A stretch of DNA of 64,000 bases from Clostridia bacterium (GTDB lineage: Bacteria > Bacillota > Clostridia > Oscillospirales > Acutalibacteraceae). Each line of letters starts with the position of its first letter. Within the stretch, counting starts at the first letter, position 1. Below are positions 15,922 through 22,570 of this stretch, piece by piece. The stretch lies in the NCBI GenBank assembly GCA_017624675.1, contig JAGAMO010000001.1:92633-156632 (forward strand), in the 5' to 3' direction. Below the pieces are notes generated by a model. It was not told where the DNA came from. It was given only the letters and a program-made list of their open reading frames with translations, and did no database searches. A program made the translations under genes and the position numbers.

Positions 15922-15952
15922 AACTTAAGATTTGTATACGGAGGTGATACTA

Positions 15953-16207
15953 GTGAGCGTAGTTGAATACATTATCGGCGCTGCAGTAATTATAGTTTCT
16001 TTAATTATAATTGCCGTTGTTCTTTTACAGCAAGGTCGTCGTGCCGGCATTAACGGTGCAATTTCCGGCGGTGCAGATACTTTCCTTTCTAAAAATAAGG
16101 CGAGAACTATTGATGCTTTATTAGCTCGCTGGACAAAGTATATTGCCGTCCTTTTCTTTGTACTTGCTATTGTTGCTAACTTTATAGCTATCAAATTAGG
16201 TGCATAA
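15953..16207 (+). CDS. secG: Preprotein translocase subunit SecG
   Basis: Small membrane subunit of the SecYEG channel. From GTG 15953 the protein has 84 residues with two hydrophobic helices (about 5-26 and 56-78) joined by the family's glycine-rich loop LLQQGRRAGINGAISGGADTF. The GTG start is chosen over an in-frame TTG at 15932 because a near-perfect GGAGGTGAT ribosome site (15940-15948) lies just upstream of the GTG and would be inside the coding region otherwise. Confidence 0.93.
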   Translation: MSVVEYIIGAAVIIVSLIIIAVVLLQQGRRAGINGAISGGADTFLSKNKARTIDALLARWTKYIAVLFFVLAIVANFIAIKLGA

Positions 16208-16510: not shown

Positions 16511-17011
16511 ATGCTTTTAAAACCCAAAATTAAATTAGAAAGAGTTACGGATATCACACCCGAAATTCTTAAAAAATATAATATAGACAGTTTGATTTTA
16601 GATGTTGATAATACTCTCTCAACCCATCACGGTGATGTTTTAACCGATGGTTTAGAGGATTGGCTTAAATTGATGCATGACAGTGGGATTAAACTTATGG
16701 TTCTATCAAATTCTAAGGAACGCCGTGTGAAACCTTTTGCTGAAAAAATCAATCTTCCCTTTATAAGTTTAGGACTTAAACCCTTGCCTTTTGGATATAT
16801 TCGTGCATTAAAGGCATTGGGTAGCAAACGCAAAAACACCGCTATTGTCGGTGACCAGATTTTTACCGATGTTTTAGGCGGTAATATTGTTGGCGTTAAA
16901 ACCTTGTTGCTAACTCCTATTTTACTTGAGAGTACTGCAGGTTTTAAATTTAAAAGAAAAATCGAGCGTTTAGTTTTTAAAATTTACAGAATAAAAAATA
17001 CGGAGGTATAG
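16511..17011 (+). CDS. yqeG: YqeG-family HAD phosphatase
   Basis: 166 residues of the HAD subfamily IIIA type, close to YqeG and to phosphatidylglycerophosphatase-like proteins. Visible motifs are the nucleophile DVDNT (in ILDVDNTLSTHHGD), VLSNSKERR with the second-motif serine, KPLPFGY with the lysine, and the metal-binding GDQIFTDVLGGN. Substrate unknown from sequence; dephosphorylation of a phospholipid or nucleotide is the family expectation. RBS TTAGGAGAAAAATT precedes ATG. Followed after 2 bases by the endonuclease IV-like gene. Confidence 0.85.
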   Translation: MLLKPKIKLERVTDITPEILKKYNIDSLILDVDNTLSTHHGDVLTDGLEDWLKLMHDSGIKLMVLSNSKERRVKPFAEKINLPFISLGLKPLPFGYIRALKALGSKRKNTAIVGDQIFTDVLGGNIVGVKTLLLTPILLESTAGFKFKRKIERLVFKIYRIKNTEV

Positions 17012-17013
17012 TT

Positions 17014-17874
17014 GTGGCTGTCAAATTCGGTCCTGCCGGTTCTGCTGATAGTTTTAAGGAAATGGGATATAAATCCAGTCTTCAAATACCTGAATATTTA
17101 ACCAAATTTGGTTTGAACGCCTTTGAATATCAATGTGGCAGAGGCGTTAACATAGGCGAAGATAAGGCGAAACAGTTAGGAATTATTGCAAAAGAAAAGG
17201 GAATAGCCCTTTCTCTTCACGCACCTTATTATATCTCTATGTCTTCTCTCGAAGAGGAAAAGAGACTTAATTCTGTAAACTATATTTTAGCGTCTGCAAG
17301 AGCAGTAAATGCTATGGGTGGAGATAGAATAATTGTCCACACAGGTTCTTGCGGTAAAATCTCTCGCGAGAAGGCACTTGAACTTGCGATTGACACAATG
17401 AAAATTTCTTTAGATGCCTTAAAAAGTGAGGGTCTTTCTCATATTCGTATTTGCCCCGAAACAATGGGTAAAGTAAACCAACTCGGCACCTTGCACGAAG
17501 TTATGGAACTTTGCAAGGCAGATGAATCTTTGATTCCTTGCATTGATTTCGGTCACCTCAATGCCCGCGATTTAGGTGTAATTAAATCTAAAGATGATTA
17601 TGACACAATATTGACTGAAATCAAAAACTCTTTGGGCAGTGAGCGTTTAAACTGCTTCCATTCTCATTTTTCAAAAATTGAGTATACAAATGGTGGAGAA
17701 AAGCGTCATTTAACCTTTGAAGACACAGTTTACGGTCCTGATTTTGAGCCACTCATGGAACTTGTATATAAATACGGCTTAAATCCAACCTATATTTGCG
17801 AATCTGCAGGAACTCAAACTGAAGATGCAAAGCAAATGATGGATTATTATAATAATTTAAAGGGTGAGGTGTAG
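17014..17874 (+). CDS. Endonuclease IV-like TIM-barrel protein
   Basis: 286 residues, GTG start after CGGAGGTATA. The protein aligns by motif with the AP endonuclease 2 (Nfo) family: H69 (SLHAPYY), H109 (IVHTGS), E149 (CPETMGK), D178 and H181 (CIDFGHLNA), H216/H218 (CFHSHFSK), H232 (KRH) and E263 (ICESAG) fall at expected zinc-ligand positions. The Asp of the usual D-x-H ligand pair is K230 here, and the neighbouring GEG-type segment is not conserved. It may be a diverged AP endonuclease or a sugar-isomerase-fold enzyme with another substrate. It belongs to the yqeG unit. Confidence 0.7.
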   Translation: MAVKFGPAGSADSFKEMGYKSSLQIPEYLTKFGLNAFEYQCGRGVNIGEDKAKQLGIIAKEKGIALSLHAPYYISMSSLEEEKRLNSVNYILASARAVNAMGGDRIIVHTGSCGKISREKALELAIDTMKISLDALKSEGLSHIRICPETMGKVNQLGTLHEVMELCKADESLIPCIDFGHLNARDLGVIKSKDDYDTILTEIKNSLGSERLNCFHSHFSKIEYTNGGEKRHLTFEDTVYGPDFEPLMELVYKYGLNPTYICESAGTQTEDAKQMMDYYNNLKGEV

Positions 17875-17876
17875 TT

Positions 17877-20462
17877 ATGATTTGGCATAGTTCGACCGCA
17901 AGGGAAGTTTTAAATCACTTTAATGTTGATGATAAAAAAGGTCTTGCTAACGGAGAATGTGAAGAAAAACTTGAAATTTACGGTAAAAATATTATTTCAA
18001 AAATTGAAAAACCGACCCTATTCAAGCGCTTTTTATCACAGCTTAACAACAAGATGGTAATTGCACTGATTGTAATTGCTTTGATTTCTTTTGTGGTATC
18101 GTTAGTATATAATGATGTTAACAGCACTTCCGCTTTGCTTATAATTGCTATTGTGTTGCTTAATGCGTTTATAAGTGCGTTTCATATTAATAACTGCGAT
18201 AATACCTTTGAGGATATTAAAAATATCACAAATCCCTCAACCACAGTTTTAAGAGACGGTATTATCAGAAGTATTAATTCTGCAAATTTGGTTGTCGGCG
18301 ATATTATTATCCTCGAAGAAGGGGACTATATCTCGGTTGATGCGAGAATTATTGAAGCTAATGAGTTTCGTTGTATTGAAACTAATCTGACCGGTGTTGA
18401 AGTTCCCGTAGTTAAAAACAGTGATGCTATCTTAGATGATATTACACCTGTTGAAGAGCGAACAAATATGGTGTTTTGCGGCTCAAGCGTTGCCCATGGA
18501 ACCGCAAAAGCTATTGTTACAGCTGTTGCGCTCAATACCGAAATGGGTAAATCTTCTGCTATTATGCAACAAACTGGAGAAGATAAACTTCCATTACAAA
18601 ACAAACTTGATGCGATTAGTAAAATAGCAAATATTTCAATTTTAGGTATTTGCGCTCTAATTTTTATAATTTCTTTGTTTTATAATTTCTCGGCAGATAA
18701 TTTTGCTTCTATGACGGTTAAGATGCTCGTCAATGCGGTTGCATTAGCAGTTGCTGCTATTCCCGAAGGTTTGCCAATGATAGTTGCTGTGGTAATTGCG
18801 CTGGGAATTAAACGCATTTTAAAAGATAATATTATTGTAAAGGATATTAGTGCCGTTGAATTACTTGGTAAGACCGATGTTCTTTGCTGTGATAAGACGG
18901 GAGTTTTAACCCGTAACAAGATGGTTGTAACCCGTATTTTTGATGGGGACAAGATTTGTGATTTTGCAAATGATGTTCCTGATGAGAAAATATTAACCGT
19001 TTTAAAACTAGCAACTGCCTGTAGCACACTACAAAACGATTCCACTGAAAATGCTATTGAAAACGCTTGTTTAACATATAATTCAATGTCTTTGCAAGAT
19101 GTTCTAAATGTTTTCCCACAAGTGACTTATGTGCCTTTTGACAGTGACAGAAAATCAATGTCAGTCATTTCAATGATTAACAAACAACCTGTTGCAATTG
19201 TTAAGGGTGCGCCCGAAAACCTGATTTCTCATTGTGTTAATTGTGATGCAGAAAAGATTTTAAAGTTAAATGTAGAAATGGCAAAACAAGGGCTTAGAAT
19301 TGTTTGTATTGCAATGAAGACCTTAGACCAGCTTCCTGCAAATCCTACTGCAGAGGAAATTGAAAACGACTTGATTTTCGTTGGCTTAATTGCTCTTAAT
19401 GACCCACCGCGAGAGGGTGTTGAAGAAGATATTAAGTCTTGTCAGTTGGCTGGAATCGACACCATTATGATAACGGGTGATAATTTAGAAACTGCGAAAG
19501 CTGTTGCTGAAAAAATTGGTATTATGCGCGAGGGTACCCTAGCTATTACAGGTGCTGAACTTTCTGCTATGACCGATGATGAGTTGTTTGAAAATATCGA
19601 GAAATACTCGGTATTCGCTCGAGTAACTCAAGGAGATAAGCTTAGAATTGTTAAAGCATGGCAGAGTTTGGGTAAGGTCGTTACAATTACAGGCGACAAT
19701 GTTGAGGATGCTGACAGCCTTGCCACTGCTGACGTTGGCTGTGCTATTGGCAAGTTTGGTGCCGATGTTGCCAAGGGAAATGCTGATATTATTATTTCAA
19801 ATAACCGCTTCCATTCAATTTTGAAAGCTATAAGAGAAAGTCGTGGACTTTTTGCTAATATTAGAAAATCGGTGATGTATTTATTTAGCTGTAACTTTGC
19901 TGAAATAGTTACTGTATTTTTTGGTTGGTTATTCTTTAAAAATATGCCTATAATGGCGGCACAGTTATTATGGATTAATTTATTGACCGATTCTGCACCC
20001 GCAATTTCTTTAAGTCTCGAAAAAGCAGAAAAGAATATAATGGAGAAAAACACAGTAAGTGTTAACCGTTTATTTAATAAAAAATCTATCATTTTAATTG
20101 CACTTGAGAGTGTTTTTATAACCGCCCTGACCCTTTTTGCTTTCTTTATAGGAAACGATTTTGGGGATACCGTACGAGCTTCTACATTTGCTTTTGCTGT
20201 TCTTGGTATGACCCAAATTCTACATTGCTTTAACTGCAAATTTGAAGGCTCAATTCGTTTTAAAAAGTTATTTAACAACAACTTTATGAATATATCTGTT
20301 TTGGTTGCTTTCTTTGTGGTGGTTTTCCTAGTACTTACACCCGCCGGTGCACTTTTCGGTTTGAAAATGTTAAGTTTTGCAGAATTCTTAATCTGCTTGG
20401 TTTTATCACTGATTATAATTCCTGCAACCGAATTGTTTAAATTAATAATTAAAAAGATATAA
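17877..20462 (+). CDS. P2A-like cation-transporting P-type ATPase with altered catalytic motifs
   Basis: 861 residues with the full P2A (SERCA/PMCA-like) plan: N-terminal cation-ATPase domain, two helices (about 55-105), actuator domain, helices 3-4 with IPEGLP, P and N domains (KGAPE present), then six C-terminal helices. Ion-site residues match calcium pumps: the IPEGLP glutamate, N and E in CNFAEIV, and N, T, D in INLLTD. Yet the actuator TGES is TGVE (172-175), the phosphorylation motif DKTGT is DKTGV (D339), and GDGVNDAP is GDNVEDAD (D607, N608, E610). The aspartate acceptor remains. Family placement is firm; ion and activity are not. It follows the endonuclease IV-like gene by 2 bases and ends at a bidirectional terminator. 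Confidence 0.85.
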   Translation: MIWHSSTAREVLNHFNVDDKKGLANGECEEKLEIYGKNIISKIEKPTLFKRFLSQLNNKMVIALIVIALISFVVSLVYNDVNSTSALLIIAIVLLNAFISAFHINNCDNTFEDIKNITNPSTTVLRDGIIRSINSANLVVGDIIILEEGDYISVDARIIEANEFRCIETNLTGVEVPVVKNSDAILDDITPVEERTNMVFCGSSVAHGTAKAIVTAVALNTEMGKSSAIMQQTGEDKLPLQNKLDAISKIANISILGICALIFIISLFYNFSADNFASMTVKMLVNAVALAVAAIPEGLPMIVAVVIALGIKRILKDNIIVKDISAVELLGKTDVLCCDKTGVLTRNKMVVTRIFDGDKICDFANDVPDEKILTVLKLATACSTLQNDSTENAIENACLTYNSMSLQDVLNVFPQVTYVPFDSDRKSMSVISMINKQPVAIVKGAPENLISHCVNCDAEKILKLNVEMAKQGLRIVCIAMKTLDQLPANPTAEEIENDLIFVGLIALNDPPREGVEEDIKSCQLAGIDTIMITGDNLETAKAVAEKIGIMREGTLAITGAELSAMTDDELFENIEKYSVFARVTQGDKLRIVKAWQSLGKVVTITGDNVEDADSLATADVGCAIGKFGADVAKGNADIIISNNRFHSILKAIRESRGLFANIRKSVMYLFSCNFAEIVTVFFGWLFFKNMPIMAAQLLWINLLTDSAPAISLSLEKAEKNIMEKNTVSVNRLFNKKSIILIALESVFITALTLFAFFIGNDFGDTVRASTFAFAVLGMTQILHCFNCKFEGSIRFKKLFNNNFMNISVLVAFFVVVFLVLTPAGALFGLKMLSFAEFLICLVLSLIIIPATELFKLIIKKI

Positions 20463-20465
20463 AAA

Positions 20466-20497
20466 AAGGACTGCCAAAAGGCAGTCCTTAATTTTTT
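20466..20497. terminator. Bidirectional terminator between P-type ATPase and EF-G-like gene
   Basis: AAGGACTGCC (20466-20475), loop AAAA, GGCAGTCCTT (20480-20489), then a T run to 20497; the opposite strand has a matching T run, so both converging genes can end here. Confidence 0.88.
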
Positions 20498-20498
20498 G

Positions 20499-22532
20499 TT
20501 ATTTAGATGCTTCAATAATTTTAGCAGTAAGGTTTGCGGGAACTTCCTCATATCTTGCAAGTTCTAAAGTAAAGGTTGCAGTACCTTGAGTGATAGAACG
20601 CATTGCAGTTGAGAAATCGGTCATCTCAGCCATGGGGACTTCGGCTGTAACCTCTTGGAGCTTATTTGCTGTGGGCTCCATTCCAATGATTCTGCCGCGG
20701 CGTTTGTTAATGTCGCCAATAACATCACCTAGCATATCGTCAGGAACCAGTACCTTAAGCGTGCCTATAGGCTCTAACAATACGGGGGAAGCTTGAGGTA
20801 TACCTTCCTTATAAGCAATAGCTGCAGCAAGTTTAAAGGACATTTCAGAGGAGTCTACGGGGTGGTAAGAACCGTCATATAAAACTGCCTTAACACCAAT
20901 GGTGGGATATCCTGCAAGAACGCCTTTTTCAGTGCACTCGCGAAGACCTTTTTCAACAGCAGGGAAGAAGTTCTTAGGAACTGCACCGCCGAAGATTTCG
21001 TCTTCGAATACCAATTCGTCACTATCGCAAGGCTCAAATCTAATCCAAACATCACCGAACTGACCGTGTCCGCCTGATTGTTTCTTGTGTCTGCCCTGAA
21101 CTTTTACGGATTTTCTAATGGTCTCTCTATAAGCAATCTTGGGGGATTTTAGTTCAACCTCTGCGCCAAATTTTGATTTTAGACGGGAAACAATAACATC
21201 AATATGTTGTTCACCAAGAGCAGAGAGAATTAATTCCTTGGTTTCCTTGTTGTGTTTAACAATAATGGTTGGGTCTTCCTCGGTTAAGCGGTTAAGCGAG
21301 GTTGCAATTTTTTCTTCGTCACCCTTAGCTTTTGGATAAACCGCCATTGAAAGTGTTGGAGCGGGGAAGTCAATAGTTTCAGCAGAAATCTTACCTTTAA
21401 GTGATAATGTGTCGCCAGTTAAAACATCACCTAGTTTTGCTACGGCACCGATATCACCTGCAGATAGCTTTTTAATGTCTTCAGATTTTCCACCCTTTAA
21501 GCAGAGGAGTTTGCCAAGCTTTTCTTCTTCGCCTGTGCGAGAGTTTATAAGTTTTGTGTCGCCCTGCAAAGTACCTGACAACACTTTGAAATATGAAAGT
21601 TTGCCAACAAATGGGTCTGCAATTGTTTTGAAAATATTGATAGCCGTTTCGCCACTCTCAGAGTAAGCAACAGTTTCGCCGTCAGCAGTCTTATAGGTTG
21701 CATCTGCTGCGGTTGGCATAATCTCTGTAATAATGTCAGCAAACATCGAAACAGCATCACCTGTCTGCTGAATACCGCAGAATACAGGACAAATATCGCC
21801 GCTCTTAACGCCCGATTTAAGGCCTTTTACAATTTCTTCTTTTGTAAACTCTTCACCGGCGAAATATTTTTCCATCAAGTCTTCGTCAGCGGAAGCAATA
21901 GCCTCTAAGAGCATATTTCGCATATTCTCAATTTCTGCACTAACGGGCATTCTGAATTCTTTAGCAGTTAAACCGTCAAAAGCATAAGCTTTGTTCTCAA
22001 TAAGATTTATGTAACAAGTAACAGCATCGTTTTCAACAAAAGGAATAACAACAGGGCAGATAACCGCACCGTAGTTAGCAACAAGCGTTGATAAAACACG
22101 GTAGAAATGAGCGTGAGTAGAATCTAATTTACCGATAAAGAAAGCGGCGGCCTTGCCATTACTTTTAAGTTTTTGGTAGCTTTGCTTAGCGCCAACTGTA
22201 ATACCGGATTTACCTGAAATTACGATTATACCGGAATCTGCAGCATTTACAGCTTCACAAACGCCGCCTGCAAAGTCAAATAGTCCTGGGGCATCAATAA
22301 GGTTTAGCTTGCTGTTATTTAATTCCAAAGAATAAACGGCGGTTGAAACTGAAACCTTGCGCTTTTTTTCTTCGGGGTCAAAATCCAGAGCAGTTGTACC
22401 GTCATTTGCCTTACCGATTCTTTCAATAGCCTTTCCGTAATATAAAATGGCGTCGGCAAGGGTGGTTTTACCCGAATTGCCGTGACCTAGCAACGCAATA
22501 TTTCTAATTTCATTTGCCAAATAGTCTTTCAT
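20499..22532 (-). CDS. EF-G-like translational GTPase (FusA2-type)
   Basis: 677 residues from ATG 22532, which follows AAAGGAGAG; an upstream in-frame ATG at 22568 would place that ribosome site inside the gene. It has the EF-G plan: GTPase domain, beta-barrel domain II, and domains III-V (including the GRGQFG-like segment SGGHGQFGDV). P-loop is GHGNSGKT (16-23). The switch II motif DTPGH is DAPGL (80-84), so the catalytic histidine is missing, and NKxD is GKLD (134-137). This resembles the second, EF-G-like paralogues of Clostridia and actinobacteria rather than the main elongation factor. Role unknown; ribosome rescue or recycling is possible. Confidence 0.88.
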   Translation of the reverse strand: MKDYLANEIRNIALLGHGNSGKTTLADAILYYGKAIERIGKANDGTTALDFDPEEKKRKVSVSTAVYSLELNNSKLNLIDAPGLFDFAGGVCEAVNAADSGIIVISGKSGITVGAKQSYQKLKSNGKAAAFFIGKLDSTHAHFYRVLSTLVANYGAVICPVVIPFVENDAVTCYINLIENKAYAFDGLTAKEFRMPVSAEIENMRNMLLEAIASADEDLMEKYFAGEEFTKEEIVKGLKSGVKSGDICPVFCGIQQTGDAVSMFADIITEIMPTAADATYKTADGETVAYSESGETAINIFKTIADPFVGKLSYFKVLSGTLQGDTKLINSRTGEEEKLGKLLCLKGGKSEDIKKLSAGDIGAVAKLGDVLTGDTLSLKGKISAETIDFPAPTLSMAVYPKAKGDEEKIATSLNRLTEEDPTIIVKHNKETKELILSALGEQHIDVIVSRLKSKFGAEVELKSPKIAYRETIRKSVKVQGRHKKQSGGHGQFGDVWIRFEPCDSDELVFEDEIFGGAVPKNFFPAVEKGLRECTEKGVLAGYPTIGVKAVLYDGSYHPVDSSEMSFKLAAAIAYKEGIPQASPVLLEPIGTLKVLVPDDMLGDVIGDINKRRGRIIGMEPTANKLQEVTAEVPMAEMTDFSTAMRSITQGTATFTLELARYEEVPANLTAKIIEASK

Positions 22533-22570
22533 GTGTGATACTCTCCTTTGAGCAATATGTTTATACAAAT

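Follow-up and report, generated by a model that had tools for sequence, protein, structure and literature searches.

The gene at positions 17877..20462 (+ strand) of the 64,000-nucleotide stretch of Clostridia bacterium DNA analysed here (the window; contig JAGAMO010000001.1, positions 92,633 to 156,632) encodes a relative of the P2A-type ATPases with altered catalytic motifs, and the question it raises is whether such a protein still works as a pump. The open reading frame starts with ATG, has zero internal stops and encodes 861 amino acids. Five Pfam domains scored above cut-off (Cation_ATPase_N, E1-E2_ATPase, Cation_ATPase, Hydrolase and Cation_ATPase_C), the P-type ATPase superfamily domain TIGR01494 was matched with 225.4 bits (cut-off 62.3), and the top solved-structure match was the Listeria Ca2+-ATPase LMCA1 (lmo0841; E 1e-141). 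Three further NCBIfam models, for P2 Ca2+-ATPases of the PMR1, SERCA and PMCA types, scored below cut-off: TIGR01522 (483.2 vs 798.3), TIGR01116 (422.8 vs 703.4) and TIGR01517 (380.9 vs 507.05). Three canonical bacterial sequences scored in the same way were also below the TIGR01522 and TIGR01116 cut-offs; for TIGR01517, L066 (515) and L073 (511.2) passed and L065 (494.7) failed (L and G labels denote loci and genomes). The protein is tentatively read here as a phosphorylatable but poorly dephosphorylated switch, or a very slow transporter, rather than a housekeeping Ca2+ pump, any such activity being a prediction from sequence.

A motif search located three altered catalytic motifs, all on the + strand. 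In the actuator loop, TGES is replaced by TGVE (residues 172–175; 18390..18401). DKTGT reads DKTGV (residues 339–343; 18891..18905), with the nucleophile D339 retained and the fifth residue changed from T to V. GDGVNDAP is replaced by GDNVEDAD (residues 606–613; 19692..19715), in which D607 and D611 are retained and the equivalents of N610 and P613 are E and D. K443 is retained within KGAPE (residues 443–447; 19203..19217), as are all five ion ligands: E297 of M4 in IPEGLP (residues 295–300; 18759..18776), N673 and E676 of M5 in CNFAEIV (residues 672–678; 19890..19910), and N701 and D705 of M6 in NLLTD (residues 701–705; 19977..19991). TGVE, DKTGV, GDNVEDAD, IPEGLP, CNFAEIV and NLLTD each occur once in the protein. 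The roles assigned to D607 (Mg2+ ligand), N610, K588 and the ion ligands are those which we take them to have in SERCA. A preliminary description of the locus had reported the intact frame and the altered motifs at 172, 339 and 606, all of which were reproduced.

Homologues were collected from 99 related genomes and from 84,980 species genomes (the best 80 of 243 relatives). In all, 66 sequences group into one clade, 59 being full length, and the clade is altered at the same sites with varying letters. The 59 exclude seven clade fragments of fewer than 850 amino acids (L030, L034, L047, L048, L051, L064 and L093) and still contain near-copies (L032 and L119 are 98% identical). Canonical sequences shorter than 840 amino acids were excluded, giving canonical sets of 50 for the site counts and 61 for the interface, conservation and two-halves counts. 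In a tree of 31 clade and 32 canonical sequences built without the motif columns, all 31 clade members lay on one side of a branch with a Shimodaira-Hasegawa-like approximate likelihood ratio test (SH-aLRT) value of 100. L183 attached next to the clade stem, and the other 31 canonical sequences separated from L183 plus the clade at SH-aLRT 95. Further trees comprised 59 clade members with L183, and 60 clade members. L183, the nearest canonical relative, belongs to the same family and a different genus; it has standard motifs, all eight of the dephosphorylation sites scored below and the start MIWH. MIWH also begins the window protein (17877..17888, +), and its residues I2, W3 and H4 are present in 59/59 full-length clade members compared with 4, 12 and 26% of the 50 canonical relatives. 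The program left the tree unrooted; a root among the canonical sequences, which is where other phyla are represented, would make the altered motifs derived. The suggestion of a distinct P-type ATPase group was thus borne out, since homologues share the altered sites and form one clade, and among the loci read no homologue with standard motifs exceeded 41.5% identity, L183 being the closest. The members have the altered sites in common rather than the exact letters about which the preliminary description had asked: V174, V343, N608 and E610 were found in 8, 28, 7 and 16 of the 59, respectively.

The altered protein was present in 64 of the 70 genomes of the window's genus, whose species are uncultured gut bacteria, plus three further records; one carrier (G044) was counted by the identity of two fragments and another (G029) by a fragment showing the actuator loop only. 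Among genomes at least 90% complete, 38/40 carried it. The clade records, nearly all metagenome-assembled genomes, are titled Oscillospiraceae, Ruminococcaceae, Clostridiaceae, Eubacteriales or Clostridia bacterium, and in many of the titles sheep, goat, deer, horse, buffalo or rumen is mentioned. Three clade members with 36–41% identity (L153, L155 and L164) probably sit in other genera, because they matched none of the genus genomes fetched. At the DNA level, the pattern C-x-D-K-T-G-[V/I/M]-[L/F]-T matched in 46 of the 70 genomes of the genus and in 3 of 398 sampled genomes of the phylum, namely the window's own, L196 and L194. The L196 match was judged to be due to chance. L194 (G507:C12), from another family of the phylum, is a piece of a P-type ATPase with CFDKTGV yet GDGPNDA, an isolated DKTGV case outside the clade. 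A plasmid search returned at least 5000 records, all below 60% identity, with 32–35% among the matches listed.

To establish which sites had changed, the 59 full-length clade members were compared with the 50 canonical relatives. Retained residues were D339 (58/59), K340, T341, G342, T345 and K443 (59 each), T533-G534-D535 (59), K588 (58), T605-G606 (59) and D611 (59). The residues T343, E174, S175, D607, N610 and P613, invariant in the canonical relatives (50/50), all varied in the clade. Residue 343 is I (29), V (28), T (1) or L (1), that is, other than T in 58/59; the P-type consensus DKTG[T,S][L,I,V,M][T,I], as given in the available part of PMC6592433, is not matched by the window's DKTGVLT. 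Residue 174 is E (29), D (14), V (8), S (4), A (2), N (1) or T (1), and residue 175 is E (22), I (12), D (10) or others, with the S of TGES in only three members. At 607 the letters are D (38), N (15), S (2), T (2), E (1) and G (1). For residue 610, Q (20), E (16), D (10) and others were found, the N of GDGxND persisting in four members and the window reading GDNVED. Residue 613 is D (40), E (11) or others, and other than P in 58/59. A simple stand-in role of D/E613 for a lost D607 was considered and found unsupported, an acid at 613 being present in 34/38 members with D607 and 17/21 without. One swap is uniform, with E at 447 in 59/59 clade members and D in 50/50 canonical relatives. L028/L116 reads NKTGI together with actuator TGES, in an open frame. 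Overall, 148 positions were at least 98% conserved in the canonical set, and 59 of these stay at least 95% conserved in the clade. Because clade and canonical sets are about equally diverse (median pairwise identity 0.50 and 0.47), the losses at conserved sites are not simply divergence.

The changes fall unevenly on the two halves of the catalytic cycle. Two lists of sites were scored, both picked after the counts had been seen. All 15 ATP-binding and phosphorylation sites were retained in 54/59 members and 14 in the other five. For the eight dephosphorylation and E2P-interface sites, 0–3 were retained in each of the 59 (at least five altered), compared with all eight in 60/61 canonical sequences and seven in the remaining one. 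The eight include 226 and 613, equivalent to Ile218 and Pro629 of LMCA1, which the available part of PMC11977196 places among the hydrophobic contacts between the actuator and phosphorylation domains (A-P contacts) that persist from [Ca]E2P to E2P. Residue 226 is I in 60/61 canonical sequences and T, S, Q or N in 49/59 clade members, and residue 613 is D or E in 51/59. From the LMCA1 alignment, the contacts Ile218, Pro601, Val625 and Pro629 of that source correspond to S226 (18552..18554, +), Q585, V609 and D613 in the window protein. These interface changes would point to an altered E1P-to-E2P step besides altered hydrolysis.

On this pattern, the protein belongs to an old side branch of the bacterial P2A (SPCA/LMCA1-like) ATPases in which the residues serving ATP binding and aspartyl-phosphate formation have been kept. 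Rewritten are those serving the other half of the cycle, in which the actuator docks onto the phosphorylated P domain and the phosphate is hydrolysed: TGES, residue five of DKTGT, GDGVNDAP and some of the hydrophobic A-P interface. In what seems the likeliest working mode, ATP, possibly the phosphoenzyme, and a cation in the M4-M5-M6 site may together set the conformation, and the phosphoenzyme would exit from that state very slowly, or only backwards to ADP. Such a protein could serve as a phosphorylation-dependent switch or a very slow transporter, with bulk Ca2+ export usually performed by another protein.

Two further observations fit this proposal. First, eight of the 59 members have lost one to four of the five ion ligands (L050, L052, L151, L015, L019, L026, L029 and L110), all keeping D339. 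In L050 and L052 four of the five are gone (E297A, N673C/S, E676I/V and D705N), D339 stays and omega (the ratio of nonsynonymous to synonymous substitution rates) is 0.070; for this sublineage at least, transport of Ca2+ in the classical way is predicted to be unlikely. The 'intact ion-site residues' of the preliminary description therefore hold for the window and 51/59 members and fail for these eight. Second, other calcium exporters are often found in the same genomes. Within the genus, 65 of the 70 genomes had a Cation_ATPase_C match; the altered protein occurred without a canonical P2-type ATPase being found in 50/70, and a canonical P2 paralog was present in 14 of the 64 carriers. A canonical P2 ATPase was found in 17/70, a CaCA exchanger in 32/70 and both in 1/70 (Fisher p 1.5e-4), a pattern suggestive of a swap of one calcium exporter for another, though not proven. 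Despite the low p-value, this alternation was rejected as proof, since the independent pairs were not significant. For the near-complete carriers, 32/38 also had another exporter (9 a canonical P2, 23 more CaCA only), which suggests, without being proof, that a single dedicated exporter usually handles calcium export and that the altered protein accompanies it. Loss of D607 was associated with the presence of CaCA (13/18 vs 14/41 with D607; Fisher p 0.010, uncorrected for kinship). The earlier idea of a pump stalled after phosphorylation, or a sensor, is upheld in part by the retained phosphorylation half, the rewritten dephosphorylation half and the accompanying exporters.

A number of results weigh against a switch or very slow transporter. 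Ion ligands would be dispensable in a pure switch; most members keep all five. Six of the 38 near-complete carriers (G025, G027, G032, G034, G041 and G044) had neither a canonical P2 nor CaCA; GDT1, with 0/70 genus genomes above cut-off, leaves these six unexplained, and in them calcium export by the kinds searched may fall to the altered protein alone. The P2/CaCA alternation yielded nothing significant in its eight independent pairs. The A-P interface is partly retained, the equivalent of Pro601 being P in 53/59 (Q in the window), that of Leu221 being I in 47/59 and that of Val625 being mostly hydrophobic. Phosphorylation itself is threatened where D607, presumably a Mg2+ ligand, is lost (21/59), and L028 has N for the nucleophile Asp. 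Finally, loss of the acid at 174 (16 members) and loss of D607 never coincide among the 59. This suggests that some turnover is selected and looks like a floor on lost catalysis; small numbers lie behind the non-coincidence, with fewest tree changes of 4 for the acid at 174, 3 for that at 175 and 4 for D607.

The best-surviving alternative, a working cation pump with relocated chemistry, draws on several of the same results. Here an acid at 174 or 175 would replace the TGES glutamate, D611 and D613 would aid Mg2+ binding, and turnover would be ordinary or moderately slow, perhaps with a cation other than Ca2+. The five ligands of the 51 members, the six genomes without another calcium exporter of the kinds searched and the acid at 174 and D607 never being jointly lost would all be expected of such a pump. 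An acid is present at 174 or 175 in 58/59 members and at 613 in 51/59. E or D occupies 175 in 32/59, including 15 of the 16 members without an acid at 174 (Fisher p 2.4e-4); the members are related, however, and the four independent pairs available for this association gave nothing significant. Two cases from other proteins point the same way. ATP7A T1048I, which changes DKTGT to DKTGI, causes mild Menkes disease and was read by its authors as a partial loss of function, so that it seems partly active (PMC3489546, in the part available), and human ERMA is reported to move Mg2+ despite DKQGI, GSSANL and no TGES (available part of PMC13322241). The ATP7A case counts for the switch or slow-transporter reading as well. 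Against a working pump, the letters at 174 and 610 wander (at least 14 and 16 changes on the tree), which would not be expected of a re-optimised active site; the actuator loop of L005 is free of acids, L050 and L052 lack four of five ligands, and 32/38 near-complete carriers have another exporter. Taken together, a working pump appears rather unlikely. The relocated glutamate (E175) of the preliminary description is weakly supported: the 58/59 count and the Fisher test lean towards it, and the independent pairs and L005 do not. L005/L105, 73% identical, is the nearest relative of the window protein and reads TGAT.

A full pseudo-pump, in which no phosphoryl transfer takes place and the protein is a nucleotide- or cation-binding scaffold or a regulator, for example of another membrane protein, is improbable. 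Mean conservation was 0.509 in the clade and 0.512 in the canonical set; relative to the latter it was higher in the nucleotide-binding (N) domain (+0.11) and the N-terminus (+0.13) and lower in the P segments (−0.17 and −0.08), M1-M2 (−0.07) and M3-M4 (−0.09), values that are indicative only as the canonical set is taxonomically broader. This distribution is also among the points for the switch or slow-transporter reading. A scaffold would suit it, as it would the replaced nucleophile of L028, the 21 losses of D607 and the behaviour of human TMEM94, which in one laboratory bound AMPPCP and had no ATPase activity (PMC12134183). Hard to explain without phosphorylation, however, are D339 in 58/59 and all 15 core sites in 54/59 at 50% median identity, and no constant adjacent partner gene was seen.

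The clade is under purifying selection, a further point for the switch or slow-transporter reading. For the 25 closest clade pairs, omega, calculated with our own script (Nei-Gojobori with Jukes-Cantor), was 0.036–0.108 in 24 and saturated in the remaining one; for canonical pairs of the genus it was 0.054–0.123 in the 20 of 28 that were computable. Seven genomes gave 21 pairs in which the altered protein could be compared with the canonical paralog, and its identity was the lower in every one, which indicates faster divergence; two members (G013 and G016) contain an in-frame TAG. These last two results would suit a decaying gene or an assembly artefact, a scarcely credible general account given that the same sites are altered across dozens of separate assemblies, with open frames, omega of 0.04–0.11, far below 1, and presence in 64/70 genomes.

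The altered protein can be set beside several known systems. LMCA1 aligns over nearly the whole length and has the ATP-site residues and the nucleophile in common with the window protein; unlike it, LMCA1 has intact TGES, DKTGT and GDGVNDAP. The canonical P2 paralog of the same genome (L066; G000:C15:48940-51513) is 39% identical over nearly the whole length and differs in its standard motifs and in its TIGR01522 score (685.7 bits vs 483.2). In KdpB of E. coli, a phosphoserine in TGES blocks access to E2 (PMC9651954, available part), and in 32/59 clade members an acid stands there; KdpB is of the P1A family, however, and its modification is reversible. Plasmodium guanylate cyclases keep degenerate P4-ATPase signatures in a signalling protein (PMC6592433, same part); these differ in being eukaryotic, of P4 type and fused to cyclase domains. 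Human TMEM94/ERMA, the closest parallel in print, has a P-type fold closest to SPCA in E2P (PMC12134183 and the available part of PMC13322241) and resembles the clade in that all three motifs are changed while the Asp is retained, with DKQGI (I as the fifth residue), GDGVND replaced and TGES absent. Its ATPase status is disputed between these two sources. The likeness is one of kind only, as the window protein has neither DKQGI nor GSSANL; a GMN motif is a further mark of TMEM94/ERMA. In TMEM94/ERMA the nucleotide pocket is reported to be occluded, the T of DKT is also changed and GSSANL lacks both aspartates, whereas DKTG (D in 58/59, KTG in 59/59), K443 and D611 are kept by the clade, whose place in the tree is beside canonical bacterial pumps; we infer from this that the likeness is convergent. 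No bacterial group of this kind was found among the matches listed from the open-licence literature. To our knowledge, no earlier bacterial lineage of P-type pseudo-pumps has been described. The parts of a P-type ATPase review that were covered (PMC10654040) contain no such group.

With regard to local context, the ATPase gene seems to close an operon that also contains genes for SecG (15932..16207, +), an HAD phosphatase (yqeG-like; 16511..17011, +) and an AP_endonuc_2 TIM-barrel nuclease (nfo-like; 17014..17874, +), all assigned by domain search, with yqeG and nfo named by eye. This impression arises because only 2 bases separate the stop of the nfo-like gene from the ATPase ATG, and a terminator-like hairpin, GGACTGCC-AAAA-GGCAGTCC followed by a T run (20468..20497, +), lies directly 3' of the stop. 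The hairpin was recognised by visual reading of the sequence, as was the ribosome-binding-site-like GGGTGAGGTG 5' of the ATG (17862..17871, +). An elongation-factor-G-like gene (by eye; 20499-22568, −) faces the ATPase gene, and the hairpin could terminate transcription from both directions. The leuS-secG-yqeG-nfo neighbourhood (leuS also named by eye) is retained upstream in one part of the clade. The 30 loci without it, L120, L122 and L124 among them, have an SHMT-type family (F1) in 18 cases and a PurB-type family (F2) in 12, often upstream of the ATPase gene, both families named via Pfam from one member each. An MgtE-type gene (F7, one member tested) lies downstream on the opposite strand at 8 of these 30 loci. 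No partner gene constant across the clade was seen, the neighbours being yqeG and nfo in one part and purB/glyA-type genes in another.

It is possible, though doubtful, that a P2A pump turned once, before the radiation of the genus, into a nucleotide- and cation-gated phospho-switch, giving a bacterial pseudo-pump lineage that almost all the species retain and around which the true exporter (P2 or CaCA) was swapped. If so, TMEM94/ERMA would have a convergent counterpart among prokaryotes, and the proteins would grade from the canonical L183 to L050 and L052, which have hardly any ion site left. The dispute over the human protein concerns whether a P-type ATPase can function without TGES, GDGVND and a full DKTGT, and the clade bears on the same question. 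It comprises at least 59 full-length bacterial proteins that form a natural series, has a canonical sister and, in 14 of the 64 carriers, is accompanied by a canonical paralog; this makes it suitable for asking which residues serve phosphorylation, turnover and transport, and whether pumps can evolve into switches.

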